Positions 1 to 37,165 of a stretch of 64,000 bases of DNA are shown here, in pieces. The notes under the pieces were generated by a model, which was not told the origin of the DNA, did no database searches, and saw only the letters and a program-made list of their open reading frames with translations. The translations under genes and the position numbers were made by a program. Numbering within the stretch: the first letter of the stretch is position 1; each line of letters starts with the position of its first letter. Origin of the DNA: Marinifilum sp. D714 (GTDB taxonomy: Bacteria > Bacteroidota > Bacteroidia > Bacteroidales > Marinifilaceae); NCBI RefSeq assembly GCF_030851345.1, contig NZ_JALPNU010000005.1, positions 62,001-126,000 on the forward strand, in the 5' to 3' direction.

Positions 1-2329
1 TACCCATGTATGAATAAGTAGCATTACCAAAGAAAGCCGTATTACGGTATCTTGTATTTTCTACTCCGTAATACAAATTATTGTTCTCAACACCTTTCTT
101 GAATAATTCATAAGAATAGAATGGAATTTCACCCATTGAATATTGTAATCCCCAACCTGTATTGTGAGTTTTCTTACGATCTGATGAGTTAACCTCCATA
201 CCTCCATAAAGGTTCAGGATATGAGTATCGTTAAATGAATCCTTATAAGAAGCTGTTGCTCTAAAGTCATACCCCAACATACTATAATCAGTACGCTCAT
301 AAATACCGCCCTGTGGCAATACACTTACAGGAATTGCATATGGATCATCCGGATCTTTATAAAGGAATGGATTATTGTCGCGAACTGTTACATTAGGCAT
401 TGCTCTGTAGGCCTCAGCTTGATTCGAAAACTCAGTAATATTGTGCTCCTGTGAAGTAGCCGAATATTTAATTGCTCCCAAAGCACTCAATTCAACTTTT
501 TGAATTGGTTTCCACTTCAACTCTGTCTGGAACTTCACATCCACAACATTTAAGTCAATATAATTTTCCCCTAATTCTCTCTTAATATTAAAAGGAGCAT
601 AGTTACGTGTGTAATCTGCACTAGGGTCCAAAGTTCTTGAAGAATTCAATGCAAAAGAATAAGGGTTTATATCAAAATCACGCTTTACCTTACCTGTTAC
701 AACGTCAACATCTTGTGCCAATGTTCCCGGAGCTTTTTGCTTACGGTAAGAAGCACTACTGATTGTATTGAATGATAGATTATCGCGAATTTTAAAGTTT
801 GATTTGAAGTTCGCTGTATAACGATTTACCTTACTTGATTGAGTCCAACCCGGATCAACCAAGGCACTAACAGATCCGTAGTAAGTTGCCTTTTCAGTAC
901 CCGATGACATACTCACAGAGTGACTTTGCATGATATTGGTATTGAAAAGTTCATCGAACCAGTCAGTATTTCTATATTCGGCTTTTCTTAAAAATGCAGC
1001 TTTGGCTTCAGGAGTATTCGCCAACAAAAAATTTCCTGAAGCATCCAATTGGTTCAATTGCTGATACATTCTACCATAAACGCCACTTTCACGTGCATTT
1101 GACATATCTGCATAATTTAACCAACCACCTTCACGCATATCTTCATAAACAGCCATTTGCTCCTGCGAGTTCATGATGTTAAAATCTGAGTATGAAGGTG
1201 TCAAACGATAAGTATATTCCCCTGTATAGTTGATACGGCTAACACCAGCTTTACCTTTTTTGGTTGTAATAACGATAACCCCGGCCATTGCTCTTGCTCC
1301 ATAGATAGAAGTTGCAGAACCATCCTTCAATACTTCGAAACTTTCAATATCATCGGCATTTAAGCCTGCAATTGCAGAACTAATCAATGTAGTTACATCC
1401 CCTGAAGAAAGAGCATCTGAACTTAATTCAACAACATCTTCAAGAATAACTCCATCAACTACCCAAAGTGGCTTTGAACTACCATAAATTGAGGTAGCAC
1501 CACGAACACGGATTTTTGGAGCTGCACCGAAAGTACCCGAAACGTTTTGCACAGATACACCAGCAGCACGACCTTCTAAACCACGACTTACATCAGGGAT
1601 ACCGGAAAGTTTTACATCTTCTGCTTTTAATTTTTGACTGGCTCCAGTAAACAAGCGTTTATCAGTCACAACCATACCAGTAACAACAACTTCCTCTAAT
1701 TTTTCTGATGATTCTTTCAGCGTAATATTTAAGGATGTTTGATTGGTAATCTCAATTTCTTGATCTTCCAAACCTATAAAAGAAAAAATCAAAACTTGAC
1801 CTGGTTTATCATCCAAAGAGATTTCATACTCACCATCAATATTGGTAGTGGTACCAATATTTGATCCTTTAATAATTACTGAAACTCCAGGTAAAGAAAC
1901 ATTGTTTTCATCAACCACTTTACCTTTCAATTTTCTTTTCTCTTGAGCAGCAGTATTTGTATTTCGTTCCTGCACTCTAATCAAAACGGTTTTGTGTTCC
2001 ACCTCATAAGATAAACCAGTATTTTCAAGTGCTTTATCAAGTACTCGTTCTACCAGTTCATTTTGTGCATTCACCGAAATTGGCTTAATGCCTTCAAACT
2101 GAGATGCATCATACAGAAACCCCAGTTCGGTTTGCTCTTCAATAGCTTTAATTAAGTCTTCAATGCCGGAATTCTCTAGGCTTACGCTAATCCGACTTTG
2201 CGAAAAAATGCCTGCATTCGCTTGAAATGCAAATGCGACAATTAACACCATCACATTTCTCATTGTACGTAACATTCTCATCCACCTTATAAAAAAGGTA
2301 AATGCGTTCTCACAAAGGTTTTTTTTCAT
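1..2329 (-). CDS. SusC/RagA TonB-dependent outer membrane transporter, locus 1 (3' part outside window)
   Basis: The protein starts at the ATG complementary to 2327-2329 and runs off the left edge (about 776 codons seen). It begins with a basic stretch and a signal peptide, then an STN domain (about residues 45-120), a CarboxypepD_reg-like beta domain (GKVVDENNVSLPGVSVIIKG) and a TonB plug ending in the SusC hallmark SIYGARAMAGVIVITTKKG. The STN domain is typical of SusC proteins that signal to a FecR anti-sigma factor, which lies immediately upstream with its sigma factor. The role is active import of a SusD-bound ligand across the outer membrane plus signalling. The barrel C-terminus and the partner SusD lie outside the window. 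The family call is secure; the substrate is unknown. Confidence 0.95.
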   Translation of the reverse strand, partial: MKKNLCENAFTFFIRWMRMLRTMRNVMVLIVAFAFQANAGIFSQSRISVSLENSGIEDLIKAIEEQTELGFLYDASQFEGIKPISVNAQNELVERVLDKALENTGLSYEVEHKTVLIRVQERNTNTAAQEKRKLKGKVVDENNVSLPGVSVIIKGSNIGTTTNIDGEYEISLDDKPGQVLIFSFIGLEDQEIEITNQTSLNITLKESSEKLEEVVVTGMVVTDKRLFTGASQKLKAEDVKLSGIPDVSRGLEGRAAGVSVQNVSGTFGAAPKIRVRGATSIYGSSKPLWVVDGVILEDVVELSSDALSSGDVTTLISSAIAGLNADDIESFEVLKDGSATSIYGARAMAGVIVITTKKGKAGVSRINYTGEYTYRLTPSYSDFNIMNSQEQMAVYEDMREGGWLNYADMSNARESGVYGRMYQQLNQLDASGNFLLANTPEAKAAFLRKAEYRNTDWFDELFNTNIMQSHSVSMSSGTEKATYYGSVSALVDPGWTQSSKVNRYTANFKSNFKIRDNLSFNTISSASYRKQKAPGTLAQDVDVVTGKVKRDFDINPYSFALNSSRTLDPSADYTRNYAPFNIKRELGENYIDLNVVDVKFQTELKWKPIQKVELSALGAIKYSATSQEHNITEFSNQAEAYRAMPNVTVRDNNPFLYKDPDDPYAIPVSVLPQGGIYERTDYSMLGYDFRATASYKDSFNDTHILNLYGGMEVNSSDRKKTHNTGWGLQYSMGEIPFYSYELFKKGVENNNLYYGVENTRYRNTAFFGNATYSYMG

Positions 2330-2336
2330 ACATTTG
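2329..2336 (+). promoter_or_regulatory. Antisense -7 box (TACATTTG) over the susC start, locus 1
   Basis: This is an exact match to the Bacteroidota -7 consensus TAnnTTTG on the strand opposite susC. Its first T is the last base of the complemented susC start codon, a position shared by all four loci. No clear -33 TTTG is visible. An alternative reading is that the complementary sequence CAAANNTATG is simply a conserved translation-initiation context of susC. Confidence 0.5.
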
Positions 2337-2341
2337 TCAAT

Positions 2342-2426
2342 AGGTAATTAAACATGGAATACCCTGCACGGTATTCATTATCTGTGTATAAAATCGGAAA
2401 ATGTTGGCGCAGTTTCCGATTTTTTT
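2342..2426 (+). ncRNA. Candidate cis-antisense RNA to the susC leader, locus 1
   Basis: A predicted transcript of about 85 nt starts some 6 nt after the antisense -7 box and ends in the T-run at 2420-2426. Hairpin 1 (2357-2376) pairs GAATACC with GGTATTC around the loop CTGCAC. A 14-nt spacer containing ATTAT follows. Hairpin 2 (2391-2422) pairs AAATCGGAAA with TTTCCGATTT; an inner two-pair stem leaves the hexaloop TTGGCG. The same architecture with different stems occurs in the other three loci, which argues for a structured RNA. Position and size resemble the Bacteroides DonS antisense RNAs that repress susC homologues (recalled from the literature; homology not tested). Confidence 0.65.
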
Positions 2427-2430
2427 CTTT
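2391..2430 (+). terminator. Plus-strand intrinsic terminator between fecR and susC, locus 1
   Basis: A perfect 10-bp stem (2391-2400 with 2413-2422) is followed by seven Ts and then CTTT. The T-run is on the plus strand, so termination is antisense to the operon and falls exactly at the fecR stop codon. Confidence 0.75.
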
Positions 2431-3602
2431 TATTCCCTCATACTTACAACAACAGCTTTTTTATTCATTTCTATTTCTATATTGGAAATCTTTTCAATCA
2501 TGTTAGAAATCACTTCTAATCCTTCCATCTTATTCAATCTTCCACTTAATCTCTTGTTTTTTAGATCAGGATTTTGATAAAAGACTTTTATATCATACCA
2601 TCTGGCTATAGTTCTCAGAATATCTTCCAATCGTTGGTTCTCAAATCTAAAATATCCATTAATCCAACTGGTATATAAATTGGTATCAACCTCTGTACTT
2701 TCCAAAGTTCCTTCTTTATGATTCCACTTAGCCTGATTTCCTGGCTCAAGCATTAGACTTTTATCAACACCATTAGAGTTAATTGAAACTTTTACTTTAC
2801 CACTAACTAATGTGGTTTGTATTGAATTTTCATTCTCATATGCCATTACATTAAATTGAGTTCCTAACACCTCAACTTCCATATCATCCACTTCAACAAT
2901 AAATCTCTTACCAGTTTTACTCACATCAAAAAATGCCTCTCCTCGCAATTCTACTCTTCTATCCTGCTCTCCAAAACTTACAGGATATTTTAATTCAGAG
3001 TCACAATTCAAATAAACTATCGTTCCATCCGAAAGTTCAATCTGATAATCATCTCCTTTTGAAGTATGAAGAGTATTGTACGCAACTGATTTAGTTTTTA
3101 TCGTATCTTGCTTTTCGTACTTCAAGCCAGCTCTCAGGTATTTTCTTATTTTAACTCCCTGATCTTCCACTACAGCTTGCTCTACTCCCGATTCTAATTC
3201 ATATGTATTCCCGTTAGAGGTAATTAAAACTGTTTGATTTAAATCCTCATTTTTAATATTATTTTGATCAGCAAAAGATTGATTCATTTGATTGCTGGAG
3301 TATTTCCAAAGTCCAACACCAATCGTTAACGGCAACAGAACAACTGCAGCATACTTAAGCATTTTATTAATAAATACTTTACGCGACTTTTTATTCAATC
3401 TTTTCATGAACAAATCCGTTGTATTCGGAACTGATTCCAATCTTAGTTCTTCCATTGATTTTTCATGATAGTTTTTCATGCGACAGAAAAACGCGCTGTT
3501 CTCTCCCGATGCCATCAACCATTCTTGAAATTCTTCCTCTTCAAAGGAAGTTAATTTGCCATCCAGCTTTTTTCGGAGAATGTCTAAATCTAAATTCTTC
3601 AT
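2430..3602 (-). CDS. FecR-family anti-sigma factor, locus 1
   Basis: This is a single-pass inner-membrane anti-sigma regulator of 390 residues. It has a cytoplasmic N-terminus (1-80) that should bind the sigma factor encoded upstream, one membrane segment (about 81-99), a periplasmic FecR domain (about 175-275, with DGTIVYLNCDSELKYPVSF and RRVELRGEAFFDV) and a C-terminal DUF4974 domain (about 320-390, RLEDILRTIARWYDIKVFY). In such systems the periplasmic part receives a signal from the STN domain of the cognate SusC, encoded 101 bp downstream. It lies 147 bp after the sigma gene, presumably in one operon. No defects are visible. Confidence 0.93.
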   Translation of the reverse strand: MKNLDLDILRKKLDGKLTSFEEEEFQEWLMASGENSAFFCRMKNYHEKSMEELRLESVPNTTDLFMKRLNKKSRKVFINKMLKYAAVVLLPLTIGVGLWKYSSNQMNQSFADQNNIKNEDLNQTVLITSNGNTYELESGVEQAVVEDQGVKIRKYLRAGLKYEKQDTIKTKSVAYNTLHTSKGDDYQIELSDGTIVYLNCDSELKYPVSFGEQDRRVELRGEAFFDVSKTGKRFIVEVDDMEVEVLGTQFNVMAYENENSIQTTLVSGKVKVSINSNGVDKSLMLEPGNQAKWNHKEGTLESTEVDTNLYTSWINGYFRFENQRLEDILRTIARWYDIKVFYQNPDLKNKRLSGRLNKMEGLEVISNMIEKISNIEIEMNKKAVVVSMRE

Positions 3603-3749: not shown

Positions 3750-4328
3750 CTATATTTTGTTTTTTGTAATTATGTAGGAAAATAACACCAACAATTCTTT
3801 TAAACTATATAGCCTTTCTTTTAAAATTTTTTTAGCTCTGAACACCTGAACTTTTACAGTATTTACAGAAATATCCATTTCTTCTGCTATTTCGGCATGT
3901 TTTAATCCACTGTATACTGACATACGATAAACTTCCTTGCATTGAGTAGGTAATTCATCAATGGCCCTCTTGATTTTTAAACTCACTTCAGGATCAATAT
4001 TAACGCTTACCGATTCTGATATAATTTGAGCTTCTACTAATTTTAACTTTTTCTTGTCTTCAAGCTTTATGGAACGTAAATGATCAATGCACGAATTCTT
4101 AACCATAAAAAAAAGATAAGAACGAAGTGATCTGGAGATTCTAATATTAGGATTTTCCCATAGCTTTATAAATACTTCCTGAACAATATCCTCTGCTATA
4201 TCAGGAGAGCATACATAACATTCAGCAAAGCGAAACAATTGTGCATGGTATGTATCAAACAACATTCGAAAAGCATTCTTGTCACGTTCAGCAATTCTTT
4301 GGTATAGTAATCTCTCTTCTGCAATCAT
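3750..4328 (-). CDS. ECF sigma-70 factor, locus 1
   Basis: An RNA polymerase sigma factor of the extracytoplasmic-function class, 192 residues. Region 2 is near residues 20-90 (LFDTYHAQLFRFAECYV, DIAEDIVQEVFIKLW) and region 4 near 120-175 (LPTQCKEVYRMSVYSGLKHAEIAEEM then an HTH with SVNTVKVQVFRAKKIL). It is the first gene of the sigma/fecR/susC set and should activate the locus when FecR releases it. The tail after region 4 is short and hydrophobic (LLVLFSYIIT). Confidence 0.95.
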   Translation of the reverse strand: MIAEERLLYQRIAERDKNAFRMLFDTYHAQLFRFAECYVCSPDIAEDIVQEVFIKLWENPNIRISRSLRSYLFFMVKNSCIDHLRSIKLEDKKKLKLVEAQIISESVSVNIDPEVSLKIKRAIDELPTQCKEVYRMSVYSGLKHAEIAEEMDISVNTVKVQVFRAKKILKERLYSLKELLVLFSYIITKNKI

Positions 4329-5808: not shown

Positions 5809-5840
5809 AAAAAAAGCAGCCACTCCCAAATGTGGCTGCT
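5809..5840 (-). terminator. Terminator of locus 2 (after thioredoxin)
   Basis: On the minus strand AGCAGCCAC and GTGGCTGCT form a perfect 9-bp stem with an 8-nt loop, followed by Ts. Confidence 0.85.
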
Positions 5841-10231: not shown

Positions 10232-13200
10232 TTAGAATCCTATATTTAAAGACATCACATACTTACGTGTATTAGGGTAATCGAGTGCTCCCAATAGTGA
10301 TGGATCAATGCCTTTATATTTAGAGAAAGTTGCCACATTACGAACATTAAAGTTCAGACGTGCACTTTTCAATCCAATTCTATTAACTAACTCAGACTTG
10401 AACATATATCCCAAACTGATCATATTAATTCTAAAATAATCACCATCCTCTAGTTCAGTATCAATCATATATGTATCAAAAGCTGAATAAAAATAATCAA
10501 CACGAGGATATTTTGTTACATCACCCGGCTGAGTCCAGGAATCCAAAATATGAGCTTGCTTATTTCTAGAAGTTGTTAATTGATCGTTGGCTCCAAAAGA
10601 CATAATTTTATGACCTCCTTTATAATCCCCAGAAATACGCAATGACAATTGCTTATACTTTAAAGTTGTGGATATACCGCCATAGTAGCTTGGGGTATAA
10701 TCTCCAAGATATGAAGCTTTTGGCAATTGAATATTTGAAGTCACATTTTGAGTCAGCTTCATATCAAAAGGCTTACCATCATCTCCAATAACATATACAT
10801 GACCATCAGATGGATTAATACTATGAAATTTATATCCATACCAGCCTTTTACAGGGTAACCAGTAACATACTCCTGCCCTTTAGCTGCAACATCATCTAA
10901 ATTAGGGTAAAATGACTGTACAATTTCATCATTTAACAAATTCAAATTAGCCTGCAAAATCCATGTAAAATCATTACGATCGTATACAGTAGTAGTCATA
11001 TCAAACTCCCAACCTTTATTGGAAATAGAAGCAACATTTGCTTTGATACCTGATCTTCCTGAGGAAACAGCAAGTTTCTTAAGGTTTAGCACATCTTCAG
11101 TAATATTATCGAAATAGTTAACTCCAATCTGCAATTTGTTATTCCAAAGTCCTACTTCCACTCCAACATTACGATCTTTCTTGGTTTGCCACTTTAAGTT
11201 CTTGCTGGGATAATCAATTCTGTTTGGTAAAACTTGACCATCGTACTTGTAATTAGCATTATTAAAATGTAATAAAGTATATGGTGAAGCATTACGATCA
11301 ATACTTCCCGTGTAACCATATCCCCCTTTTAAGGCCAATAGTGAAACTATACTGCCATCTAAAAAAGCTTCGTTATGAAGATTCCATCTTCCTGACACAT
11401 TCCAAAGAGGTGTAAATTGGTTAGCATTCCCAACAAAAGTAGAACCATCATAACGCAAGCTTCCACTTAAGATATATCTATCCTTGTAAGAGTATAGCAT
11501 ATTCGTAAAGAATGATGATAATTTATCTTCATATTCTGAAGTTCCACCAAGAGCATACAAATTAAGACGATCAGCCTCAAATCCATCTAAATCAGGATAT
11601 CCGCCGATTCCATGTACTGCATCGTAAGTAGGAGAAAAGTTGAAAAAAGTATTCGACTTGGTTTGTCTAATTTCCTGACCTCCAAACAAAGTTACATAAT
11701 GACCACCTTCAAATTCTTTCATAAACTGCAAAGTATTACGCAGAGTATACTCACTTCCTCTACTAGTACTTTCTCTTAATGATCCCTGAAGCATGTCGTA
11801 GGAAAATGAAGATCTACTTTCAGGATGCCAATTAGTGCTATAAATACCATTAGTGCTATAATCGGAATAAGTACCAGCTATAATCTTTTTCGAACTATGA
11901 TTCGAATTGATATTATAAGCTCCTTGTAAGGTATAAGTTAATCCTGGCAGAAATTCGTACTCAAATTTCAGATTCATATTTGAACTAATATAACGCGAAT
12001 CATCAGTATTTTTTTTCAAATCTTCAAGGGCATTAAACTGACGAAAATAACCTTTTCCGTCAACCGTTTCAATAGAAGCAGGATAGGTTAAATCATATGC
12101 ATAAGTTCCATCCTCATTGTAAGGTTTTTCATATGGGTTAGCGTAAATAGCATATTTTAAAGGATTAATACCACTAGCCGTTTTTGTTGTATTACGAAGA
12201 TTAGTCGATAAACCAAAAGTGATCCGTATTTTTTCTGATGGATTATGAGTAATCTTCATGTTTAGTCCAAGTTTGTCAAACTCATTATTAGGCTCGATAC
12301 CTTCTTCTGATAAATAGTTCCCCGATACGTAATATTGAGTTTTTTCATTTCCGCCACTCATACTTAAAGAGTGTTGCTGACTTATAGCAGTTTTAAATAT
12401 CTCCTTAAACCAATTGGTATTTGTATTACGCAATTGATCTAAAGCCATATTTGCATCAGCTAAGGTCATGGTTTCATTTTCAATGGCTCTATAAATATCA
12501 GCAGCCCTACCAAGAAACGGTCTCTCGCTCCAATCCTCATAATAGCCTTTCTCAAATTCAACCTTCTCAGCTGAGTTCATCATAAACAACTCAGGATTTG
12601 GCCTTTCGGTAATTGTCATATTTGAGGTAATATTGAAAAATGTTTTACCAGAATGACCCGATTTTGTAGTAATTACAATTACACCATTAGCTGCCTGCGC
12701 TCCATAAATAGCAGATGCTGCAGCATCCTTCAATACCGTAATGGATTCGATATCTTCCGGAGCTACATTACCAATACCTGAAGTTAAAGCTTGAGCTCTT
12801 AAAGCATTCCCATCACTTACTTCTGGTACTGATCCCATCATAGGCATTCCATCAACAATCCATAAAGGATTTGTATTACCTGTAAAAGAGTTTACTCCAC
12901 GAATTTGAATATCTGCATCTTCACCAGGTCTTCCACTTGAAACCACATTCAATCCAGATACGCTTCCTTCTAAGGCATCCTCAACAGATGTAAAACCAAC
13001 GTTCTTAATAGCCTGATTGGTAATGGCCTTTGCACTACCTGTCATTCTTTCACGATTGATGGTTTGATAACCTGTCACTACCACCTCAGCCATTTGTTCT
13101 GAGTCTGCTGTAAGCTTTACATTTTGCACTGTCTGTCCTTTGTAAGTAACCTCTTGTGGCAACATCCCTACAAAAGAGAAAACCAATACCACATTGTCAT

Positions 13201-13723
13201 TTTCAACTTCGATAGCATACTTTCCATCAATATCCGTTGCAACCCCAACCGAAGTTCCTTTAATTACAACCGATACTCCTGGAAGAGGCACTCCTTGGTC
13301 GTCGGTTACCGTTCCTTTGATTTCTTTCTTTTCCTGTTGTCCTTTGGTAGCTGGCTCAGACGGCTTATCGACTACCATAATCACATTATCCTGAAAGCGA
13401 CATTCTAAACTACTTTTGCCAAATATTTCATTTAGAACCTCTTCTACAGTTTTACCAGCGGCATCGACACTTACACGATTTAATTCCTGAATTTTTTCTT
13501 CACTGTAAATAAAACTCAAACCTGTTTGAGACTTGATTTCATTTAGAACTTCCAATATCGTAGCATCTTCAAATTCGAAACTAACTCGCTGGTTTTGAGA
13601 AAAAACTCCTGCCGTTGCACTTAGAGATAGTGCCAATGTTAAAAAGAGTACTAGTTTCATTTCCAATAGGATTTTTAGCCATTTCCGTTTCGGGAAATGA
13701 ACCAACAAATGATTTTTTTTCAT
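10232..13723 (-). CDS. SusC/RagA TonB-dependent transporter with STN domain, locus 2
   Basis: A complete SusC of 1163 residues starting at the ATG complementary to 13721-13723. Order: basic leader and signal peptide (to about 42), STN domain (about 48-120, RVSFEFEDATILEVLNEIKS), carboxypeptidase-regulatory-like domain (about 135-215, GTVTDDQGVPLPGVSVVIKG), plug with AAASAIYGAQAANGVIVITTKSG, 22-strand barrel, and a C-terminal beta signal ending LNIGF. The STN marks it as a transducer to the FecR upstream. The leader between fecR and susC carries the antisense RNA candidate. Confidence 0.96.
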   Translation of the reverse strand: MKKNHLLVHFPKRKWLKILLEMKLVLFLTLALSLSATAGVFSQNQRVSFEFEDATILEVLNEIKSQTGLSFIYSEEKIQELNRVSVDAAGKTVEEVLNEIFGKSSLECRFQDNVIMVVDKPSEPATKGQQEKKEIKGTVTDDQGVPLPGVSVVIKGTSVGVATDIDGKYAIEVENDNVVLVFSFVGMLPQEVTYKGQTVQNVKLTADSEQMAEVVVTGYQTINRERMTGSAKAITNQAIKNVGFTSVEDALEGSVSGLNVVSSGRPGEDADIQIRGVNSFTGNTNPLWIVDGMPMMGSVPEVSDGNALRAQALTSGIGNVAPEDIESITVLKDAAASAIYGAQAANGVIVITTKSGHSGKTFFNITSNMTITERPNPELFMMNSAEKVEFEKGYYEDWSERPFLGRAADIYRAIENETMTLADANMALDQLRNTNTNWFKEIFKTAISQQHSLSMSGGNEKTQYYVSGNYLSEEGIEPNNEFDKLGLNMKITHNPSEKIRITFGLSTNLRNTTKTASGINPLKYAIYANPYEKPYNEDGTYAYDLTYPASIETVDGKGYFRQFNALEDLKKNTDDSRYISSNMNLKFEYEFLPGLTYTLQGAYNINSNHSSKKIIAGTYSDYSTNGIYSTNWHPESRSSFSYDMLQGSLRESTSRGSEYTLRNTLQFMKEFEGGHYVTLFGGQEIRQTKSNTFFNFSPTYDAVHGIGGYPDLDGFEADRLNLYALGGTSEYEDKLSSFFTNMLYSYKDRYILSGSLRYDGSTFVGNANQFTPLWNVSGRWNLHNEAFLDGSIVSLLALKGGYGYTGSIDRNASPYTLLHFNNANYKYDGQVLPNRIDYPSKNLKWQTKKDRNVGVEVGLWNNKLQIGVNYFDNITEDVLNLKKLAVSSGRSGIKANVASISNKGWEFDMTTTVYDRNDFTWILQANLNLLNDEIVQSFYPNLDDVAAKGQEYVTGYPVKGWYGYKFHSINPSDGHVYVIGDDGKPFDMKLTQNVTSNIQLPKASYLGDYTPSYYGGISTTLKYKQLSLRISGDYKGGHKIMSFGANDQLTTSRNKQAHILDSWTQPGDVTKYPRVDYFYSAFDTYMIDTELEDGDYFRINMISLGYMFKSELVNRIGLKSARLNFNVRNVATFSKYKGIDPSLLGALDYPNTRKYVMSLNIGF

Positions 13724-13730
13724 AATTTTG
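13723..13730 (+). promoter_or_regulatory. Antisense -7 box (TAATTTTG) over the susC start, locus 2
   Basis: An exact TAnnTTTG match opposite susC, overlapping the start codon complement by one base as in the other loci. No clear -33 element. Confidence 0.5.
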
Positions 13731-13735
13731 TATTG

Positions 13736-13825
13736 AAATGAGTTAACATTTGAATAGAAACCGCCAAGTATCTATTCGATTATTGATTTCGAAACGGGAG
13801 GATCTGCAAATCCTTCCGTTTTTAT
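13736..13825 (+). ncRNA. Candidate cis-antisense RNA to the susC leader, locus 2
   Basis: Predicted about 90 nt. Hairpin 1 (13752-13777) pairs GAATAGA with TCTATTC, then an A/A mismatch and two pairs close the hexaloop CGCCAA (13762-13767). A 14-nt spacer contains ATTAT. Hairpin 2 (13792-13821) is a 12-bp stem with one G-U pair and the loop CTGCAA, followed by a T-rich run. The layout matches loci 1, 3 and 4 but the stem sequences do not, so the fold rather than the sequence is conserved. Likely target: the leader of susC. Confidence 0.65.
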
Positions 13826-13938: not shown

Positions 13939-15096
13939 CTATTTTGCCATCACTACTATGGTATTCTTGTTAATTTCAAATTTTGCATTCGAAGTTTCCT
14001 GTATAAAATACAACAAACTTCTCACGTCAACATATCTTTCCATATCACCTGAGAATCGATAATTTTTACATTCTTCATTCATGTAAAATATCTTCACATT
14101 GTACCATCGTTCCAATCGAAGCATGATATTTTCCAAGGATTCATTCTCGAAAACAAAGTCACCATCTTTCCAGGCAATGTATGGTCGAACATTTACTTTT
14201 TTGATATCTATTTTACCCAACTTCATGTTTGTCAATCCCAATTCTCCTGGTTTTAATCTTGATTCTTCTCCTCTTGGATTCGCTCTTACACCAACCGATC
14301 CTTCAACCAAAACTGTTTTTATCTCATCCTGATTATAGGCATTGATACAAAACTCCGTACCATACACTTTAACTTGCTGATTGTAAGAATTCACAACAAA
14401 TGCCTTCTTTTCATCATGAGCTACATCAAAATACGCTTCTCCCTTTAGAAACACTTTTCGAATATTACCAGTAAATTGAACTGGATATCTTAATTCCGAA
14501 TCAGCATTCAGCCACACTCTGGTTCCATCTGCCAACTGCATATTAAACTCGTTTCCGCGCTCAGTTTTTAATGTATTATAGATTAGTTTATCTGTTTTTG
14601 TATCACTCTCGGTGTATTCAAGTCCTGTTTCAGAATCCAATTGAATTAAGGAACCATCTTTTTCTTTGATCTTTTTGTTTTGATCTTCAATATCAACTTG
14701 CCTTCCTGTTGACAAAATTAATCGAGCGCCTTTCTTTCCAGGTTGAATTTCTTGGTTTGCTGCAATCATTTCCTGATTTTCCTGGTACTGATTCCATAAA
14801 TAAGGGATGGAAAGGCTCAATATCAGAATCACACTGGCTGCAGCTGCAATCCAGGTAATGTAACGAACTCTAGAGTTAATACGATTCTCAAATTTCTTCC
14901 ATTCTTTGTTGGTATCAATTTGTTTGGATTTAAAACTCCAACGCACAAACAAAGATTTTTTCAGAATCTTCTCATAGATCTTTTGGTTCTCATCAGAAGA
15001 ATGAATCCATGTTTCTATGGATTTTTCCTCTTCCCCTTTGAGTTCACCTGAAATGTAATCTACAATTTCCTGGTATTTTTGATCGCTAATATTCAT
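13939..15096 (-). CDS. FecR-family anti-sigma factor, locus 2
   Basis: 385 residues: cytoplasmic N-terminus, membrane helix (about 80-101, YITWIAAAASVILILSLS), FecR domain (about 180-275, RGNEFNMQLADGTRVWLNA, KVFLKGEAYFDVAHDE) and DUF4974 (about 315-385, LENIMLRLERWYNVKIFY). It lies 71 bp downstream of its sigma gene. It should hold that sigma factor inactive until SusC signals. No defects seen. Confidence 0.94.
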   Translation of the reverse strand: MNISDQKYQEIVDYISGELKGEEEKSIETWIHSSDENQKIYEKILKKSLFVRWSFKSKQIDTNKEWKKFENRINSRVRYITWIAAAASVILILSLSIPYLWNQYQENQEMIAANQEIQPGKKGARLILSTGRQVDIEDQNKKIKEKDGSLIQLDSETGLEYTESDTKTDKLIYNTLKTERGNEFNMQLADGTRVWLNADSELRYPVQFTGNIRKVFLKGEAYFDVAHDEKKAFVVNSYNQQVKVYGTEFCINAYNQDEIKTVLVEGSVGVRANPRGEESRLKPGELGLTNMKLGKIDIKKVNVRPYIAWKDGDFVFENESLENIMLRLERWYNVKIFYMNEECKNYRFSGDMERYVDVRSLLYFIQETSNAKFEINKNTIVVMAK

Positions 15097-15167: not shown

Positions 15168-15782
15168 CTATTTTTTTGAAAAAAAGTATAAAAGAAAGAA
15201 ATCTCCCAACTTATCGGAACTGGCTCTAAGTGTTTTGAGTGAACGCACCACGTGTGTTTTTACTGTTTGAATTGAAATATTCAACTCATCAGCAGTTTCC
15301 TGATATTTCATCCCTTTCAGATAAATGCACTTTATCACTTCTCTCCCACGTTCTGGTAATTTTTCAACTTCTTCAAGAATTTTGGCTACTATTTCCTCTT
15401 TATTGGATTCAAACTCATTATAGATTTTATCAAAACTCTCAATATCAGCAGCATTCTTAAGCACATCTACCTTTTTCAGTTTATTAAAACAGGCATTTTT
15501 AACCGCTACATGCAGGTAGGAAGCTAATTTGTCAGGATTCCAATTGTGGTAAGTTTTTTTTCTCCATATGCCAACAAAAAGATCCTGTACCAAGTCTTGA
15601 GATTGATCCAAATCGTTTAAAAAAGTATCAGCCCAAATCACTAAGGATTCAAAATACTTTTTAAAGAGTAGATTCATTCCCTGCTTATTATCAGCAGATA
15701 ACAATTCGCATATGTACTTATCGGTGGTTCTCATGGTTGAATTAGGAGCTTCAAAGCTTGCAATTTTTTTTGTTTTGTGCAA
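15168..15782 (-). CDS. ECF sigma-70 factor, locus 2
   Basis: 204 residues. Region 2 reads LFKKYFESLVIWADTFL and DLVQDLFVGIWRKKTYHNW; region 4 reads LPERGREVIKCIYLKGMKYQETADEL with the HTH SIQTVKTHVVRSLKTL. An internal Met (15734, MRTTDKYICELL) is an equally plausible start, since the first 16 residues are unlike the family. First gene of the locus-2 operon. Confidence 0.93.
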   Translation of the reverse strand: MHKTKKIASFEAPNSTMRTTDKYICELLSADNKQGMNLLFKKYFESLVIWADTFLNDLDQSQDLVQDLFVGIWRKKTYHNWNPDKLASYLHVAVKNACFNKLKKVDVLKNAADIESFDKIYNEFESNKEEIVAKILEEVEKLPERGREVIKCIYLKGMKYQETADELNISIQTVKTHVVRSLKTLRASSDKLGDFFLLYFFSKK

Positions 15783-15993: not shown

Positions 15994-16024
15994 AAAAAAG
16001 CAGCCACTCCCAATTGTGGCTGCT
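15994..16024 (-). terminator. Terminator of locus 3 (after thioredoxin)
   Basis: The same 9-bp stem AGCAGCCAC/GTGGCTGCT as at 5815-5840, followed by Ts on the minus strand. Confidence 0.85.
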
Positions 16025-21197: not shown

Positions 21198-24100
21198 TTA
21201 AAAGTTAACTTTAAGTGAGAAACTGTATTTTCTTGCGAAAGGATAATAGATCCCTCGTTCTGTTTCAACAGATGACCATCGAAACACATCAGTAAGGTGT
21301 ACGCCCAATTTTACTCTGGACAGAGACAAGCTATTTGCAAAATGATCAGGCAACTGGTAGGATAAATTCACGTTGGTAAGGGTAAGCGAATTATCATCCT
21401 CAACAAATCGAGAACTTGCTCTAGTCACCTTCTTATTTGTAATGTTTTTATAAGGTGTATGATCTCCTGATCGAGCCCATCTTTGTTCAAGGGCACGTTT
21501 ATCGGCATTCTCATAAAATTTTGCATTTTCAACCCGATCGATAACTGTTTGGTTTAAAATTTGGCCTCCCAATCGGTAGTTAAAATTATAGTTCAAGCTA
21601 AATCCTTTGTAGTCGAAAGCTCCACCAAAAAAACCTTCAAATTTAGGTGCAGCTTCTCCAACCACCACCAAATCTTCCGGACTCCATACATTTGTTAAGC
21701 TCCCGTCTTTTTTTATGAAAATTTCTTCTCCTGTAGTAGGATCAATCCCCATTGACTTTACAGCATATATAGCATTCAACGACTGTCCTTCTTTAAACTG
21801 TAAAATGCTTTCTGTGGTTGTTCTATCATCAAGCGCTACATCATTGGTTCTATCATTATCATTATCCAATTCAATCTCTTTTCGCATATTCTCAATTACT
21901 TTATCGTTATATGCCTTTAGTGAGTTAGAGATTTTTTTAATGGTATTTTTGTTATGACGAAGATTTGCAAAAAAGCTCAACATCATTCCATTCTCTTTGT
22001 TTCGAATAGGGAATGCTTGCACGCGCAGCTCATATCCTTCATTATCCACATCGCCCATGTTTGCATTAAAACTTCTAAATCCTAATGATGGGGCAATGGA
22101 AATATTTGTTAACAAATCATGAGTGGTATTCAAATAATAATTTCCAACAACTTTAATCCGTTCATCCAATAATCCAAGCTCAACGCCCAGATTTCGACTT
22201 AATGTACTTTGCCATTTCAAATCCTCATTTCCTAAAGATTTTAATACAGCCCCTGTTAACAAACCATACCTTACTTCACTTAAATACTTGTATGTTGTAA
22301 TAGCCTGATAAGCATTAAAATTCTGATTTCCTGAGGTTCCCAAATTGGCTGTTAACTTCAACGACGATAAGAAGAACTTATCTTTCAAGAATTCCTCATT
22401 GTGTAAATTCCAACCAGTACCAAGCGACCAAAAAGGAGCTGTTTGCTGTAATTTTCCAAACTTTGAAGAGCCGTCAATACGACTTGAAGCATCAAACAAA
22501 TATCTGTTGTCGTAACTGTAGTTAAACGAAAGGAAAGAACCAGCCAATCTACTTTCCGACTCATAACCTGTAGGTTTAGAATTGGGACGAAATTGATTTG
22601 CAAAATTGATATGATTCAATTTATCATTCAAAAATCCAACGGCTGTATATCCCTCGTTAAAATCGTGATTACTTTGAATTTCACCACCAAGAACAGCATT
22701 GACTACATGATTGTTAAAATTCTTAAAATAGGAAAGAACCACATTTGCATCCAGATTCGTTGTTTTAGTATCTGAAATGGTATAGGAACCTCTTTGGAAA
22801 AAATCCTTTTCCTCAAAACCAATAAACTGAACAGATCCTGGCGAAACAAAAGATTCTGCATTCGCAAACTTTTTTGATATGGAAGCATTCCCTTTCAAAC
22901 GCAACTCCGAAGTAATTTTCCAATCTACAGATAAATTGTTTCTTACATCGATGTATTCGTTGCGATCAAAATTATCAAATTTTTCTGCTTCGTAAAGAGG
23001 GTTATATTGCTGAATGTGACTTCCTATTTCACCTTCACCAAGCTTAAATACCATGTTTCCCTCATCATCAGTTGGTCTATAATATGGATTTAAACGAACG
23101 TATTGATTAAAACTGCCATACGGACTATTTTTAGCCTTTACATAAGTAATATCAAGCTTGTTTTTGAATACAATGTTCTTTGTGTTGTATTGCAAATAAA
23201 TTCCGGTATTGTAACGATCTCTACCAGAACCCTTCATTACTCCAACGTTTTTGTTGTAACTCATTTCGAGTCCATATCGCATAAACTCATCCCCTCCTTC
23301 AAGGAAAAGTGAATGCATTTGTCCTACTGATGTTTGCAAGGGTTTTGCTAACCAATATGTATCTACACCCGATTTTACAGCCAACAATCTCTTGTTGTAA
23401 AGAGCATCCAACTCCATTTGGTTCGCCATTCCATTAAAATCACCATTCCATGTATCGTATACGCCTGCCAATTTTTCTGCTTCAAGCTTCTCCTTTGCAT
23501 TTAAAAGGTTGTAATCCGATAAGTCGGGCAAAGAAATGTCTATGCTTGAATTGTAAGTAACCTGCATTTTCCCGGCTAAAGGTTTCTTTGTTTCGATCAC
23601 AACAACTCCATTTGCCGCTCTCGATCCGTATATCGCTGTTGCCGAAGCATCTTTCAAGATTGTAATGCTCGCGATACGATTTTTGTCGATATCAAAAACT
23701 TTTTGGGCGCTTACCTCGAATCCATCTAAAATAAACGTAGGCATATTGGTATTTCCTTTTAGCTCTGTTTCTGATATTCCCGGAAAATTTGCCTGTCCCC
23801 TGATTTGAATGTTTGGCATGGAGTTAGGGTCGGACCCCATTAAATCATTCTCTACAATTTTAAAAGAGGCATCAAAACTTTGAATTGCAGTAAATACATC
23901 AACATTTCCAAGTTTTTCCAATTCTTCAGAACTTACAGCAACTGTTGTTCCCGTGAAACTTTCTTTGGCTTTATTAAAATAACCGGTAACAACCACTTCA
24001 GACATTACCTCCGTATCTGGCTCTAATTTTACTTTAAAATCAAGCTTGTCACCAACTTTAATCTCCTTTGTCTTGTAGCCAATAGAGGAGATAAGAATGA

Positions 24101-24629
24101 TCACTTTACCATTGTTTGGAATTTTGAGTTTAAATTCCCCGTCCAGGTTCGTACTCACGCCTATTGTTGTCTCTTTAACAACAACTGAAGCTCCTGGCAA
24201 AGGTTCCCCCTTTTCATCAGTTACCTTTCCTCTTAATTCTTTTTTCTCTTCTTGCTTTTGTTCTATTACTCGAGGTCTTTTGGTAATCAGAACGTAATCG
24301 TCAATAATCTCATATTTTAAAGAAGTCTGTTTGCACATTTCATCTAGTGCTTCTTTTAAACTTACTTGTGAAAAGTTAGCATTCACAGTTAATGACTCAT
24401 CTACCTCCTTTTCACTAAACATGAAATAGGTGCCTGTTTGTGCTTTTAATTCTTTAAAAACTTCTCTCACAGACATCTCTCCCGATTGAAGATTTACTTG
24501 CTGTCCAAGCATAACACTTGCTGAGAGTTGTAATGTACAGACCAGAACTAAGAATACACTTATTTTCATCACACGTACAATTTTTCGAATGGAAGGTGGT
24601 AAAACCCTCCAATTTCCAATGATTTTCAT
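21198..24629 (-). CDS. SusC/RagA TonB-dependent transporter with STN domain, locus 3
   Basis: A complete 1143-residue SusC, start at 24629. Signal region (to about 43), STN (about 46-115, QSGEMSVREVFKELKAQTG), regulatory-like beta domain (about 130-205, GKVTDEKGEPLPGASVVVKE), plug with SATAIYGSRAANGVVVIETKKP, barrel, and C-terminal FSLKVNF. The frameshifted susD starts 8 bp downstream. It probably forms the import and signalling receptor for the sigma/FecR pair upstream. Confidence 0.96.
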   Translation of the reverse strand: MKIIGNWRVLPPSIRKIVRVMKISVFLVLVCTLQLSASVMLGQQVNLQSGEMSVREVFKELKAQTGTYFMFSEKEVDESLTVNANFSQVSLKEALDEMCKQTSLKYEIIDDYVLITKRPRVIEQKQEEKKELRGKVTDEKGEPLPGASVVVKETTIGVSTNLDGEFKLKIPNNGKVIILISSIGYKTKEIKVGDKLDFKVKLEPDTEVMSEVVVTGYFNKAKESFTGTTVAVSSEELEKLGNVDVFTAIQSFDASFKIVENDLMGSDPNSMPNIQIRGQANFPGISETELKGNTNMPTFILDGFEVSAQKVFDIDKNRIASITILKDASATAIYGSRAANGVVVIETKKPLAGKMQVTYNSSIDISLPDLSDYNLLNAKEKLEAEKLAGVYDTWNGDFNGMANQMELDALYNKRLLAVKSGVDTYWLAKPLQTSVGQMHSLFLEGGDEFMRYGLEMSYNKNVGVMKGSGRDRYNTGIYLQYNTKNIVFKNKLDITYVKAKNSPYGSFNQYVRLNPYYRPTDDEGNMVFKLGEGEIGSHIQQYNPLYEAEKFDNFDRNEYIDVRNNLSVDWKITSELRLKGNASISKKFANAESFVSPGSVQFIGFEEKDFFQRGSYTISDTKTTNLDANVVLSYFKNFNNHVVNAVLGGEIQSNHDFNEGYTAVGFLNDKLNHINFANQFRPNSKPTGYESESRLAGSFLSFNYSYDNRYLFDASSRIDGSSKFGKLQQTAPFWSLGTGWNLHNEEFLKDKFFLSSLKLTANLGTSGNQNFNAYQAITTYKYLSEVRYGLLTGAVLKSLGNEDLKWQSTLSRNLGVELGLLDERIKVVGNYYLNTTHDLLTNISIAPSLGFRSFNANMGDVDNEGYELRVQAFPIRNKENGMMLSFFANLRHNKNTIKKISNSLKAYNDKVIENMRKEIELDNDNDRTNDVALDDRTTTESILQFKEGQSLNAIYAVKSMGIDPTTGEEIFIKKDGSLTNVWSPEDLVVVGEAAPKFEGFFGGAFDYKGFSLNYNFNYRLGGQILNQTVIDRVENAKFYENADKRALEQRWARSGDHTPYKNITNKKVTRASSRFVEDDNSLTLTNVNLSYQLPDHFANSLSLSRVKLGVHLTDVFRWSSVETERGIYYPFARKYSFSLKVNF

Positions 24630-24636
24630 AAATTTG
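24629..24636 (+). promoter_or_regulatory. Antisense -7 box (TAAATTTG) over the susC start, locus 3
   Basis: An exact TAnnTTTG match, overlapping the complemented start codon by one base as in the other three loci. Confidence 0.5.
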
Positions 24637-24641
24637 TATTG

Positions 24642-24721
24642 AGGTTATTAAATTTCCATTGCGCCAACAATGGAGTTAATTATCACTGAACGGGGAATAC
24701 GCCAATATTTCCCGTTTTTTC
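24642..24721 (+). ncRNA. Candidate cis-antisense RNA to the susC leader, locus 3
   Basis: Predicted about 80 nt. Hairpin 1 (24655-24674) pairs TCCATTG with CAATGGA around the loop CGCCAA. A 14-nt spacer contains ATTAT. Hairpin 2 (24689-24716) is an 11-bp stem, AACGGGGAATA with TATTTCCCGTT, around an identical CGCCAA loop, then a run of six Ts. On the complementary susC leader both loops would read UUGGCG, the hexaloop known from IncI/IncB-type plasmid antisense control. This is one of the two clearest members of the set. Confidence 0.7.
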
Positions 24722-24750: not shown

Positions 24751-25929
24751 TTATTCTCTTCCTACAACAACAAGCTTCCCTTTGATTGCAAAATCCACAT
24801 CGGCCACACGCTCAATTAAATTCAAAGCATATTCAAAAGAATTTTCCTTCTCAAATGCGCCTGTAAATCTGATGTGCTTAAACTTTTCCTCTGTGAAGAA
24901 AAATTTCACATCGTACCATCTACCCAATTGAGTCATAATGTACTCCAATTCCATATTTTCAAACTCATACACTCCATTCACCCATGAGGTATACAAGTGG
25001 GTATCCACTCCTTGAATCTCAATTTCATCTCTACCTCTATAGATTGTAGACTGGTAACCTGGTTGTAATAACTTCTTATTTCCTAGATTATTAACCTGAA
25101 CAGATCCTTCCACCAAAGTCGTAGCAATAAACTCCTGGTCATCATAGGCCGAAACATTAAAACTGGTTCCTAACACCTTCACCTTGGCATCGTGAGAGTT
25201 AACTACAAAAGGCGCTTGCTTGTTATGAGCCACTTCAAAATAAGCTTCTCCAGTGAGATAAACCTCTCTCCTACTACTTGAAAATTTTACTGGATATCGA
25301 AATTTTGTATCAGCATTTAACCACACCTTTGTTCCGTCTGAAAGCGTTAAAGAAAACTCGCCCCCTCTTGGCACATCAATTGCATTAAAAAGTAGCTTTT
25401 CACTCGAAGTTGTATTAGGGGTATAACTAATATTATTCAATGAATCTTTGGCAATCTGCGTTCCATCTTTTTCAGAAATCAACTGCTTCTCATTTTCTAC
25501 AAGCTTTATTCGAGAACCATCAGCCAAAGTTATTGTTGCACTTATATCACCTTGTTGAGCTAACTGTTCGAAATTATAATCTTTACTAAAGTCAATTTTA
25601 CTGCTATGCTGTTTGATTAAAATGGTGCTCACAATCGCAATAATGGCAACAGCAGCAGCATACGGAAGCCATATGTGCAGTTTTCTTGTTTTTATTTTGG
25701 ATTTGCTTAAGCTGGATTGAATCTGTTTCCATGCTTTTTCTTCATTCAATTGATTCAAAAAACCAATTGAACGACCATTTGCATACAAACGACGATAGTG
25801 ATTAAAAAGTGCTTTATTTTCTCTGCTTTCATTCAGGAAACTTTCTAACGCTTTCTTAGAATTCTCACACAACTCTCCTCGGGAATAATCACGAACCCAA
25901 TTGATAATATTTTCTTCCTTACTTTCCAT
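24751..25929 (-). CDS. FecR-family anti-sigma factor, locus 3
   Basis: 392 residues from the Met at 25929 (MESKEENIINWVRDYS), preferred over an in-frame Met 30 nt upstream because family members begin here. Cytoplasmic domain, membrane helix (about 87-105, WLPYAAAVAIIAIVSTILI), FecR domain (about 190-285, GGEFSLTLSDGTKVWLNADTK, EVYLTGEAYFEVAHNKQ), DUF4974 (about 325-392, LEYIMTQLGRWYDVKFFF). Intact. Confidence 0.94.
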   Translation of the reverse strand: MESKEENIINWVRDYSRGELCENSKKALESFLNESRENKALFNHYRRLYANGRSIGFLNQLNEEKAWKQIQSSLSKSKIKTRKLHIWLPYAAAVAIIAIVSTILIKQHSSKIDFSKDYNFEQLAQQGDISATITLADGSRIKLVENEKQLISEKDGTQIAKDSLNNISYTPNTTSSEKLLFNAIDVPRGGEFSLTLSDGTKVWLNADTKFRYPVKFSSSRREVYLTGEAYFEVAHNKQAPFVVNSHDAKVKVLGTSFNVSAYDDQEFIATTLVEGSVQVNNLGNKKLLQPGYQSTIYRGRDEIEIQGVDTHLYTSWVNGVYEFENMELEYIMTQLGRWYDVKFFFTEEKFKHIRFTGAFEKENSFEYALNLIERVADVDFAIKGKLVVVGRE

Positions 25930-26162
25930 TTCTTTTTGAACCGATCGATTTAATAACAAAATTGGTGTGCACTTTCATTAATGAGATTCAGGATTTCTAA
26001 AATGGGTGACAAATTTTTTCTTTTTTTTTACTCCCTTGTATATTATATCGGCAAGCATTTGTAAAACCAATAGAAGTAGACATAGAAAGACCATCCGTTA
26101 AAAGTTAACAGTGATACAAAGCAATGATCTCATGATCATCGCAAACAAAAAAATTGCCTGAA

Positions 26163-26711
26163 TTAAGATAACATGATGAGAATAATGATATCGAGGGAAG
26201 ACCTCAACTGCTTTAAGGCTCTGGAAAAATGTGTTTTGATCGTGTTTAGGGAAACATCCAATTCTTCTGCCACTTCCTTGTATTTCATATTATCGAACAC
26301 AATGGCTTCAAAAACTTTACGACTCTGTTCCGACAATTGATCCAATTCCATGAAGAGCTTGGCTTTTTTCTCTTCCAAAACATCAGTATCTAGCTCTTCC
26401 ATTAAAATATCGAATTCGTCGTCTAATTCTTCAATTCGATACCTATTGTTCTTACGAATGTAATTCAATGCATTATTCTTTACTGCTGTAAAGAGATAAG
26501 ATTTAAGAGAGGAATTTAAAGAATGAATTCGCTTGTTTTCCCAAAAATTTATGAAGACCTCCTGAACTAAATCTTCTGCCACATCGAAAGCATCTAGATA
26601 TCTCATTGCCAAAATGCATAGTGGAGAATAATAGATATCAAACATATGGCGCAATCCAGATTCGTCGCCATTCTTCATTTTTTCAATAATGATTTGTTCC
26701 TGATGTTTCAT
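26163..26711 (-). CDS. ECF sigma-70 factor, locus 3
   Basis: 182 residues starting at 26711 (MKHQEQIIIEKMKNGDESG). A longer in-frame reading up to 26822 adds an unlikely tail and would read through the promoter. Region 2: MFDIYYSPLCILAMRYL, DVAEDLVQEVFINFWENK; region 4: LSEQSRKVFEAIVFDNMKYKEVAEEL with HTH SLNTIKTHFSRALKQL. First gene of the locus-3 operon. Confidence 0.94.
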   Translation of the reverse strand: MKHQEQIIIEKMKNGDESGLRHMFDIYYSPLCILAMRYLDAFDVAEDLVQEVFINFWENKRIHSLNSSLKSYLFTAVKNNALNYIRKNNRYRIEELDDEFDILMEELDTDVLEEKKAKLFMELDQLSEQSRKVFEAIVFDNMKYKEVAEELDVSLNTIKTHFSRALKQLRSSLDIIILIMLS

Positions 26712-26721
26712 AATGGGCTCC

Positions 26722-26729
26722 CAAAAATA
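26722..26729 (-). promoter_or_regulatory. -7 box TATTTTTG upstream of the locus-3 sigma gene
   Basis: An exact TAnnTTTG match on the coding strand, 10 nt before the ATG at 26711. If used, the leader would be only about 5 nt. A TTG lies 23 nt further upstream, a loose spacing. Confidence 0.4.
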
Positions 26730-26996
26730 GAAAATATATTTTATTGAAATAGCAATGCATCCATTAAAAAAGTCCCTACTCTTTTTAAGATTAGTTCTAG
26801 CTACCCAAAACGAATCCGACAATTTGGCGAGTCATGTACAATAATGTATATAAAAGAATAAATATTTTAAGAGTACCTAGTACTTAAATTTGTTAAAATT
26901 CCAACTATAGTACTTATCCTATTTATGATAATTATTTTCATTTAATCTAAATACAGTTTACAATCATTATACCCTCTTATTAAATAATTTAAATAC

Positions 26997-37082: not shown

Positions 37083-37089
37083 AAATTTG
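37082..37089 (+). promoter_or_regulatory. Antisense -7 box (TAAATTTG) over the susC start, locus 4
   Basis: An exact TAnnTTTG match at the same offset from the susC start as in loci 1-3. Confidence 0.5.
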
Positions 37090-37094
37090 TAAAT

Positions 37095-37165
37095 GAAATT
37101 AAACAATGGTTCATCGCTCCAACGATGAACATTATTGAGGGATAGCTCCAACTATCCCTTTTTTT
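37095..37165 (+). ncRNA. Candidate cis-antisense RNA to the susC leader, locus 4
   Basis: Predicted about 71 nt. Hairpin 1 (37109-37130) is a perfect 8-bp stem GTTCATCG/CGATGAAC with loop CTCCAA. The spacer is ATTATTG (7 nt). Hairpin 2 (37138-37159) is a perfect 8-bp stem AGGGATAG/CTATCCCT with the same loop CTCCAA, followed by seven Ts. On the susC leader strand both loops read UUGGAG. The conserved fold with unrelated stems, compared with locus 3, is the best evidence that this is a functional RNA. Confidence 0.7.
37138..37165 (+). terminator. Plus-strand terminator between fecR and susC, locus 4
   Basis: A perfect 8-bp stem with 6-nt loop and seven Ts, ending 20 bp before the fecR stop codon. 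The U-run exists only in the antisense direction. Confidence 0.8.

Follow-up and report, generated by a model that had tools for sequence, protein, structure and literature searches.

Introduction

In Bacteroides, antisense RNAs associated with polysaccharide utilization loci (PULs) are recorded in transcript maps, which list them for 15 PULs in B. fragilis (PMC9723704) and count 32 in B. thetaiotaomicron (PMC10994844). RNAs of the DonS type are described as 78–128 nt long (PMC7366714); ten antisense RNAs oriented like DonS have been mapped in B. thetaiotaomicron, with five detected on Northern blots, and repression was validated for one PUL antisense RNA, in B. fragilis (PMC7366714, PMC10994844). 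As these reports describe them, the RNAs show mixed correlations with their PULs, and functional work is called for (PMC9723704, PMC10994844). The present analysis concerns an element of this kind in a stretch of 64,000 nucleotides, hereafter the window, which corresponds to positions 62001–126000 of contig C61 in the 4.77-Mb draft genome of Marinifilum sp. D714; family, order and class refer throughout to the lineage of this organism (Marinifilaceae, Bacteroidales, and Bacteroidia). The minus strand of the window holds four units made of an extracytoplasmic function (ECF) sigma factor, a FecR-type anti-sigma factor, and a SusC protein, and each of these units flanks one plus-strand site at which a short structured antisense RNA is predicted opposite susC.

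Short hairpin antisense RNAs of plasmids, such as CopA with its target CopT and FinP with traJ, meet the leader of the target transcript by a contact between complementary loops. RNAI of the I-complex plasmids is likewise a hairpin antisense RNA that makes a loop-loop contact with a leader hairpin (PMC10724649), and loops of the YUNR or U-turn type are described as quickening such contacts in other antisense systems (PMC6562991). The FopS small RNAs (sRNAs) of B. thetaiotaomicron are reported to act in trans by means of a shared 5′ seed (PMC11697453).

Layout of the Antisense Element at the Four Loci

All four FecR-SusC junctions of the window share one plus-strand layout, as the initial annotation of this DNA had proposed: the motif TAnnTTTG, a first hairpin (H1), a spacer with ATTAT, and a second hairpin (H2) followed by a T-run. 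TAnnTTTG is the −7 consensus of the sigma factor sigma-ABfr (PMC7366714), and its first T is in every case the final base of the complemented susC start codon (ATG). The box reads TACATTTG at locus 1 (2329–2336, overlapping the susC start codon), TAATTTTG at locus 2 (13723–13730), and TAAATTTG at both locus 3 (24629–24636) and locus 4 (37082–37089). H1 begins 20, 21, 18, and 19 nt after TTTG at loci 1–4, within the 18–21 nt previously indicated.

With the start placed from the promoter and the end from the T-run, the predicted RNAs, all on the plus strand, measure 85, 90, 80, and 71 nt at loci 1–4, and each is complementary over its whole length to the susC leader beside the start codon. At locus 1 (2342–2426), H1 lies at 2357–2376 with the loop CTGCAC, and H2, the putative terminator, at 2390–2423 with the loop TTGGCG and a T-run after it; at locus 2 (13736–13825), H1 (13752–13777) has the loop CGCCAA and H2 (13792–13821) the loop CTGCAA. 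Both hairpins of locus 3 (24642–24721; H1 24655–24674, H2 24689–24716) carry CGCCAA, and both hairpins of locus 4 (37095–37165; H1 37109–37130, H2 37138–37159) carry CTCCAA. The hexaloops claimed for the four loci are present, with an A-A mismatch required in H1 of locus 2 and an A-G mismatch in H2 of locus 1. Two details of the first description hold for loci 2–4 and are looser at locus 1: the spacer, given as 14 nt in loci 1–3 and 7 nt in locus 4, measures 13, 14, 14, and 7 nt, the first value becoming 14 with another stem boundary, and the T-run, said to occur only in the antisense direction, has at locus 1 a sense-side counterpart, TTTT, next to H2.

Covariation and Strand of the Fold

A covariance model built from four locus-1 orthologs only (R1) was used to search 338 kb of DNA from 63 sources picked for holding such junctions. 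The other three loci of the window were recovered at E-values of 1.7e-5, 5e-4, and 9e-4, and the first match on the opposite strand appeared at E 0.03; the loops of the element recur in none of the window's remaining perfect hairpins of at least seven pairs. When 30 distinct junctions were aligned with R1, an alignment that is fitted to the structure and so favours the pairing count, 97.5% of 524 helix cells were paired and two-sided changes were found at 18 of 18 pairs (173 cells), H1 alone accounting for seven of seven. Shuffled controls gave on average 63% paired cells and two-sided changes at 14.3 pairs in 43.9 cells, and slid partners gave 38–49% paired cells. The same kind of hairpins is recovered by a finder that is independent of the model, and the covariation-type evidence first claimed from four loci is in this way borne out on a larger set.

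The 30 rows derive from 32 sources, L037 having given no row; in comparison with a looser 33-row alignment, L057 and two wrong-strand rows were lost at the stricter E-value. Alignments of divergent junctions made with MAFFT misplace H1 and were rejected for pair counts. A second model (R2), employed for the genome searches, was built from the 30 aligned junctions.

Fold energy alone cannot assign the strand, since both strands fold better than their shuffles: the z-scores of the predicted antisense RNAs at loci 1–4 are −3.1, −5.0, −4.8, and −6.4, and those of the complementary sense strands −4.4, −3.3, −2.5, and −6.7. The wobble pairs are more informative, because what reads as an A-C mismatch on one strand becomes a G-U pair on its complement; an excess of G-U in the antisense reading accordingly indicates a fold kept for the antisense RNA. 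In this reading the unique H2 stems contain 43 G-U against 5 A-C and the H1 stems 8 against 1, that is, 51 against 6 in total, in a count for which the finder treats both alike and whose rows share ancestry; in the fitted alignment the values are 23 and 2. The T-run and the −7 box point in the antisense direction as well. The antisense strand is thus the one whose fold is kept, in line with what the initial annotation had read from the letters.

Distribution of the Element

The element was first described as a four-copy family, a number that proved too low. In the genome of the window, R2 gave 12 matches at E ≤ 1, with scoring confined in each genome searched to the best 150 of some 8,000 candidates from a first look; 11 of the matches are no more than 30 nt from a susC start, and the twelfth is the other strand of one of these sites. 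The 11 sites comprise 10 of the 13 FecR-linked SusC genes of the genome and one SusC without detected FecR (L002). Matches at E ≤ 0.01 were obtained in 48 of 56 genomes of the family and in 13 of its 17 genera, with up to 29 per genome, and all 30 loci returned by the family search lie between FecR and SusC. It is confirmed that the antisense element at FecR-SusC junctions is real and larger in extent than stated at first. The proposed interpretation as antisense RNA is supported, because the two computable outcomes that would have spoken against it, a lack of enrichment at FecR-SusC junctions and a lack of covariation, were both contradicted; the transcript itself is a prediction from the sequence.

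In a sample of the order, 42 of 294 genomes have a match at E ≤ 0.001, and 18 of the 20 places fetched, of 66 listed from outside the family, are between FecR and SusC. The phylum sample gave matches in 15 of 296 genomes: in the same class outside the order all 11 places fetched, of 16 listed, are between FecR and SusC, and neither of two fetched matches elsewhere in the phylum is. Carriers include Labilibaculum, Ancylomarina salipaludis, Sunxiuqinia indica, Odoribacter laneus, and several Bacteroides, whose FecR-SusC sites match R2; Paludibacter sp. 221, Hoylesella marshii, and Segatella baroniae gave no R2 match at E ≤ 0.5. In the set that includes the named genomes, both FecR and SusC were found at 24 of 30 loci and neither at L240, L241, L251, L252, and L254, L236 being too short to judge; of these six loci, four (L236, L240, L251, and L252) come from Bacteroides genomes. 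In a later set both genes were found at 12 of 20 new loci and neither at L267, L268, and L272–L277.

A SusC without detected FecR has an antisense-like site upstream in all five genomes of the genus (E 0.007–0.03), located in the genome of the window at 160454–160545 of contig C72 (L177, L002) and in the others represented by L169–L172; L173, L175, and L176, with E > 0.5, were taken as chance matches.

In Bacteroides proper many R2 matches lie elsewhere, and one of seven fetched from the genus search is at FecR-SusC. One 94-nt element, 91–100% identical, is present in 16 of 16 Bacteroides genomes searched (match at about 1501–1595 of the fetched sequences). Six loci (L233, L234, L237–L239, and L250) have it at FecR-SusC, opposite susC, whereas in six others (L222, L272, L273, and L275–L277) it adjoins an open reading frame (ORF) resembling acetokinase, with a PNPase-like ORF beyond in five of them; Pfam was run on L277 only, and the other genes on this side are named by likeness. 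This element may be an antisense RNA that gained a trans-acting role or derived from one. At L226 and L274 (match at about 1501–1584) the sequence found is an element of 84 nt that combines TAnnTTTG with a terminator, is away from susC, and was classed as a false positive of R2; further matches of the same length in these genomes suggest several copies, two of which were read.

Conserved Blocks and Hairpin Loops

The loops were tallied on 99 junction RNAs, which are 102 distinct junctions less L014, L062, and L186, where no acceptable H2 was found by the rule of the script. Before the tally, L019, L022, L087, L088, L102, L117, L137, L138, L149, and L162 had been dropped for an absent layout or a doubtful start, L059, L060, and L069, likewise dropped, were re-entered with a corrected start, and model matches contributed L064, L072, and L075, for which no FecR had been observed; L049 and L082 are among the few rows in which the finder chose a hairpin other than the eye would.

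The −7 box and the T-run are the most conserved blocks of the junction RNAs. The box is found in 80 of the 99, a set picked in part by the model, in addition to the four loci of the window. In 40 of 64 FecR-linked SusC genes, as against 5 of 82 without detected FecR, the motif CAAAnnT stands ahead of one of the first ATGs; all five of the latter are fetched stretches of 501 bases that exclude most of fecR.

The apex of H2 is distinctive. It is a hexaloop in 82 of 99 junction RNAs (83%) in comparison with 23% of 96 other terminators from the same DNA, a few of which are junction hairpins missed by the filter, and UNR is found at the start of the loop on either strand in 79% against 24%; a lineage-wide habit of terminator loops as the cause of the hexaloop is not supported by this comparison. 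In 62 of 99 the bases adjoining the loop are TG..CA. The frequent loops are UUGCAG, UUGGCG, UUGCCG, UGGCCG, UUAGCG, and UGGGGG, with CUGCAA, CUCCAA, and CGCCAA as inverted forms. H1 is looser, with a hexaloop in 40 of 91 and no H1 found in 8 of 99, so that the hexaloop seen in both hairpins of the four loci extends to the wider set mainly for H2.

The polarity swap noticed in the H2 loop of locus 1 relative to loci 3 and 4 is real, and the same swap occurs among orthologs, since the loop is UUGGCG in three genomes of the genus and CGCCAA in a fourth. In another SusC group with one and the same 8-bp stem, GGUCCAG (L029, L054, and L071) faces CUGGACC (L067). Hairpin loops are described to invert in one step in chloroplast DNA (PMC6005162), and loop inversion can accordingly be regarded as an ordinary mutation. 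The persistence of flipped loops suggests that polarity does not matter to the function, as would be expected if the loop meets its own complement, unlike a loop that is read by a protein.

H1 and H2 have the same loop in 10 of 65 representatives, as against 0.83 expected from shuffling (none of 20,000 shuffles reached 10), with three of the ten, L016, L065, and L257, sharing one H2 stem and being relatives; reverse complementary H1 and H2 loops were found in none of the 65. One might guess that shared loops serve as redundant contact sites. By eye, L065 and L068 have a third short hairpin upstream of the junction terminator, with the loop of the terminator, TTGGAG. When one of the two strands is allowed, UNR stands at the start of the H2 loop in 50 of 69 representatives and YUNR inside it in 36 of 69, and the classical YUNR U-turn, present in about half, was not retained as the explanation of the loops.

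Proposed Mechanism and Alternative Explanations

The preferred reading, to which a probability of about 0.8 is assigned, is that each site encodes a short, terminated cis-antisense RNA of the DonS type that is driven by sigma-ABfr and represses susC, both transcription and repression being predicted. Direct support comes from the position, the promoter-like and terminator-like elements, the conservation of the fold on the antisense strand, and the distribution. The housekeeping sigma-ABfr promoter, with its −7 box over the susC start codon, would start the RNA just upstream of susC; the RNA would be read away from susC through the leader and would end at H2, before fecR. In the absence of the glycan it would be in excess over rare susC transcripts, and a first loop-loop contact between the complementary antisense and leader hairpins would be followed by the spreading of the pairing to a duplex over the leader, with block of translation or degradation as the outcome. 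The stems would confer locus specificity and the hexaloops would be tuned for quick contact. Release of the ECF sigma factor by the glycan would bring about strong transcription of susC, which would titrate the RNA and cross the antisense promoter and in this way lift the brake.

Among the alternatives, the one that survives best, though unlikely, considers the RNA a by-product of a promoter-terminator pair and attributes the effect to the act of antisense transcription, by interference with the RNA polymerase that reads into susC. With the −7 box lying over the susC start codon, sense and antisense transcription are bound to collide, and the most conserved blocks are precisely this box and the T-run; such interference, however, needs neither a conserved H1 nor a special apex, yet both stems covary and the H2 apex is unlike that of other terminators. 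The two modes are not exclusive and could act jointly.

It is improbable that these RNAs form a trans-acting sRNA family like FopS whose location at susC is coincidental. FopS sRNAs are reported to repress susC translation, with 4 of 14 in antisense position (PMC11697453), and one and the same Bacteroides element is found either at FecR-SusC or beside acetokinase-like and PNPase-like genes; against this, the RNAs of the window have no long common 5′ sequence past the promoter, their stems are locus-specific, and all matches in the genome of the window are at susC starts. About equally improbable is that the hairpins serve the sense transcript by giving susC a structured leader, either an attenuator or a stability element, with the antisense direction incidental. 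Two observations would fit such a leader, namely the folding of the sense strand as well (z −2.5 to −6.7) and the T-run that H2 of locus 1 also has on its sense side; the wobble excess of 51 to 6, the orientation of the −7 box, the T-runs on the antisense side of H2 (87–97% T in the first four positions, in a set partly chosen for the T-run), and the higher R1 scores in the antisense orientation, with no other-strand match before E 0.03, do not. The least probable alternative, in which H2 is a terminator that insulates fecR and the sigma gene from antisense reading, H1 is unrelated, and susC is not regulated, could draw on the relatives that keep H2 with a weak H1 or none (the 8 of 99 above) and on the one-step flipping of loops (PMC6005162), but it presupposes an antisense promoter and is at odds with the two-sided changes at seven of seven H1 pairs and with the loop sharing in 10 of 65 RNAs against 0.83 expected.

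Several observations weigh against the cis-antisense reading itself. No conserved −33 element was found in the alignment of the junction RNAs, and no conserved sense (ECF) promoter was seen upstream of the leader across junctions, so that both hairpins can only be presumed to belong to the susC mRNA. The frequencies of the T-run and the −7 box are in part a selection effect of the model and of the T-run rule of the script. With YUNR in only 36 of 69 representatives, the kissing step leans on loop size and on the conservation of the apex. Three of the 13 FecR-SusC junctions in the genome of the window (L019, L022, and L029) gave no R2 match, the limited number of candidates scored per genome also counts here, and some relatives have FecR-SusC junctions of 25–40 nt without the element (L088, L102, L117, L137, L138, and L149), which indicates that the RNA tracks the FecR-SusC system and is not obligatory. 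Finally, some antisense-PUL pairs of B. thetaiotaomicron are reported to be positively correlated (PMC10994844).

The loops of different loci can be exactly complementary, as UUGGCG of locus 1 and CGCCAA of locus 3. A broader and rather tentative idea is that a single RNA family, spread over at least two orders of the class, with up to 29 copies per genome and tied to ECF sigma-FecR-SusC systems, might superimpose on cis repression a network of cross-PUL contacts between complementary loops that ranks the PULs.

The covariance model detects such RNAs together with promoter and terminator from sequence and permits their listing in any Bacteroidota genome, which tells which susC genes carry the predicted brake and which are without it. 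The apex loop, the stems, and the −7 box are defined parts for tests, and the loop inversions and repeated loops offer a direct handle on the meeting of RNA and target.

Gene Context in the Window

The genes of the four units are all on the minus strand. At locus 1 the 5′ part of susC occupies 1–2329, the gene running beyond the window, FecR lies at 2430–3602, and the ECF sigma factor at 3750–4328; the corresponding positions are 10232–13723, 13939–15096, and 15168–15782 at locus 2, and 21198–24629, 24751–25959, and 26163–26822 at locus 3. At locus 4 susC extends over 33480–37082, with the complemented ATG at 37080–37082 and a TTG start further upstream, at 37151, in the ORF list, and FecR and the sigma factor lie at 37185–38360 and 38445–38978. 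Elsewhere in the window, an identical hairpin, AGCAGCCAC-8 nt-GTGGCTGCT, follows an A-run at 5815–5840 and at 15999–16024, a minus-strand terminator-like site.

Comparison with Known Systems

In searches against Rfam 15, neither the whole window nor eight related loci gave a match at the gathering cut-off, and at E ≤ 5 five loci gave three matches, all under the cut-off; the match of traJ_5 to L195 (25.4 bits against a cut-off of 50, E 2.2) was sub-threshold and not used. Unlike CopA, FinP, and RNAI of plasmids, the element is chromosomal, is located at susC, and bears the loop on a terminator hairpin; its UUGGCG loop presumably resembles the target loops of such plasmids. With FopS and GibS (PMC11697453) it has in common the multicopy nature and, as a predicted target, the start region of susC mRNAs, and it differs from them, as they are described, in that every copy of the window faces a susC of its own and is unlike the others in sequence; a common 5′ seed of the FopS type was not found among the RNAs of the window, whose 5′ parts diverge beyond the promoter.

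The closest likeness is with DonS, and the comparison made in the initial annotation is apt in position, predicted size, and orientation as these are described for that type (PMC7366714). A short divergent RNA, predicted in the present case, is encoded opposite the 5′ end of susC (four of four loci in the window and 11 of 12 matches in the genome). A putative −7 box of the sigma-ABfr type is present at the loci of the window, and the predicted lengths of 71–90 nt partly overlap the 78–128 nt described for the DonS type, locus 4 with its 71 nt falling just below. The element can thus be likened in kind to a DonS-like cis-antisense RNA, by these features and not by sequence. It is unlike the DonS-type RNAs in the available descriptions in being predicted from sequence and in occurring in other families too, and a common fold, an apex motif, and loop inversions are not among the features described for them in those reports (PMC7366714, PMC10994844). 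No published account of the common fold was found in a limited literature search; as far as this search shows, what the element adds to the known systems is a common fold with its spread, a distinctive terminator apex, loops that invert, and the frequent repetition of one loop in both hairpins.

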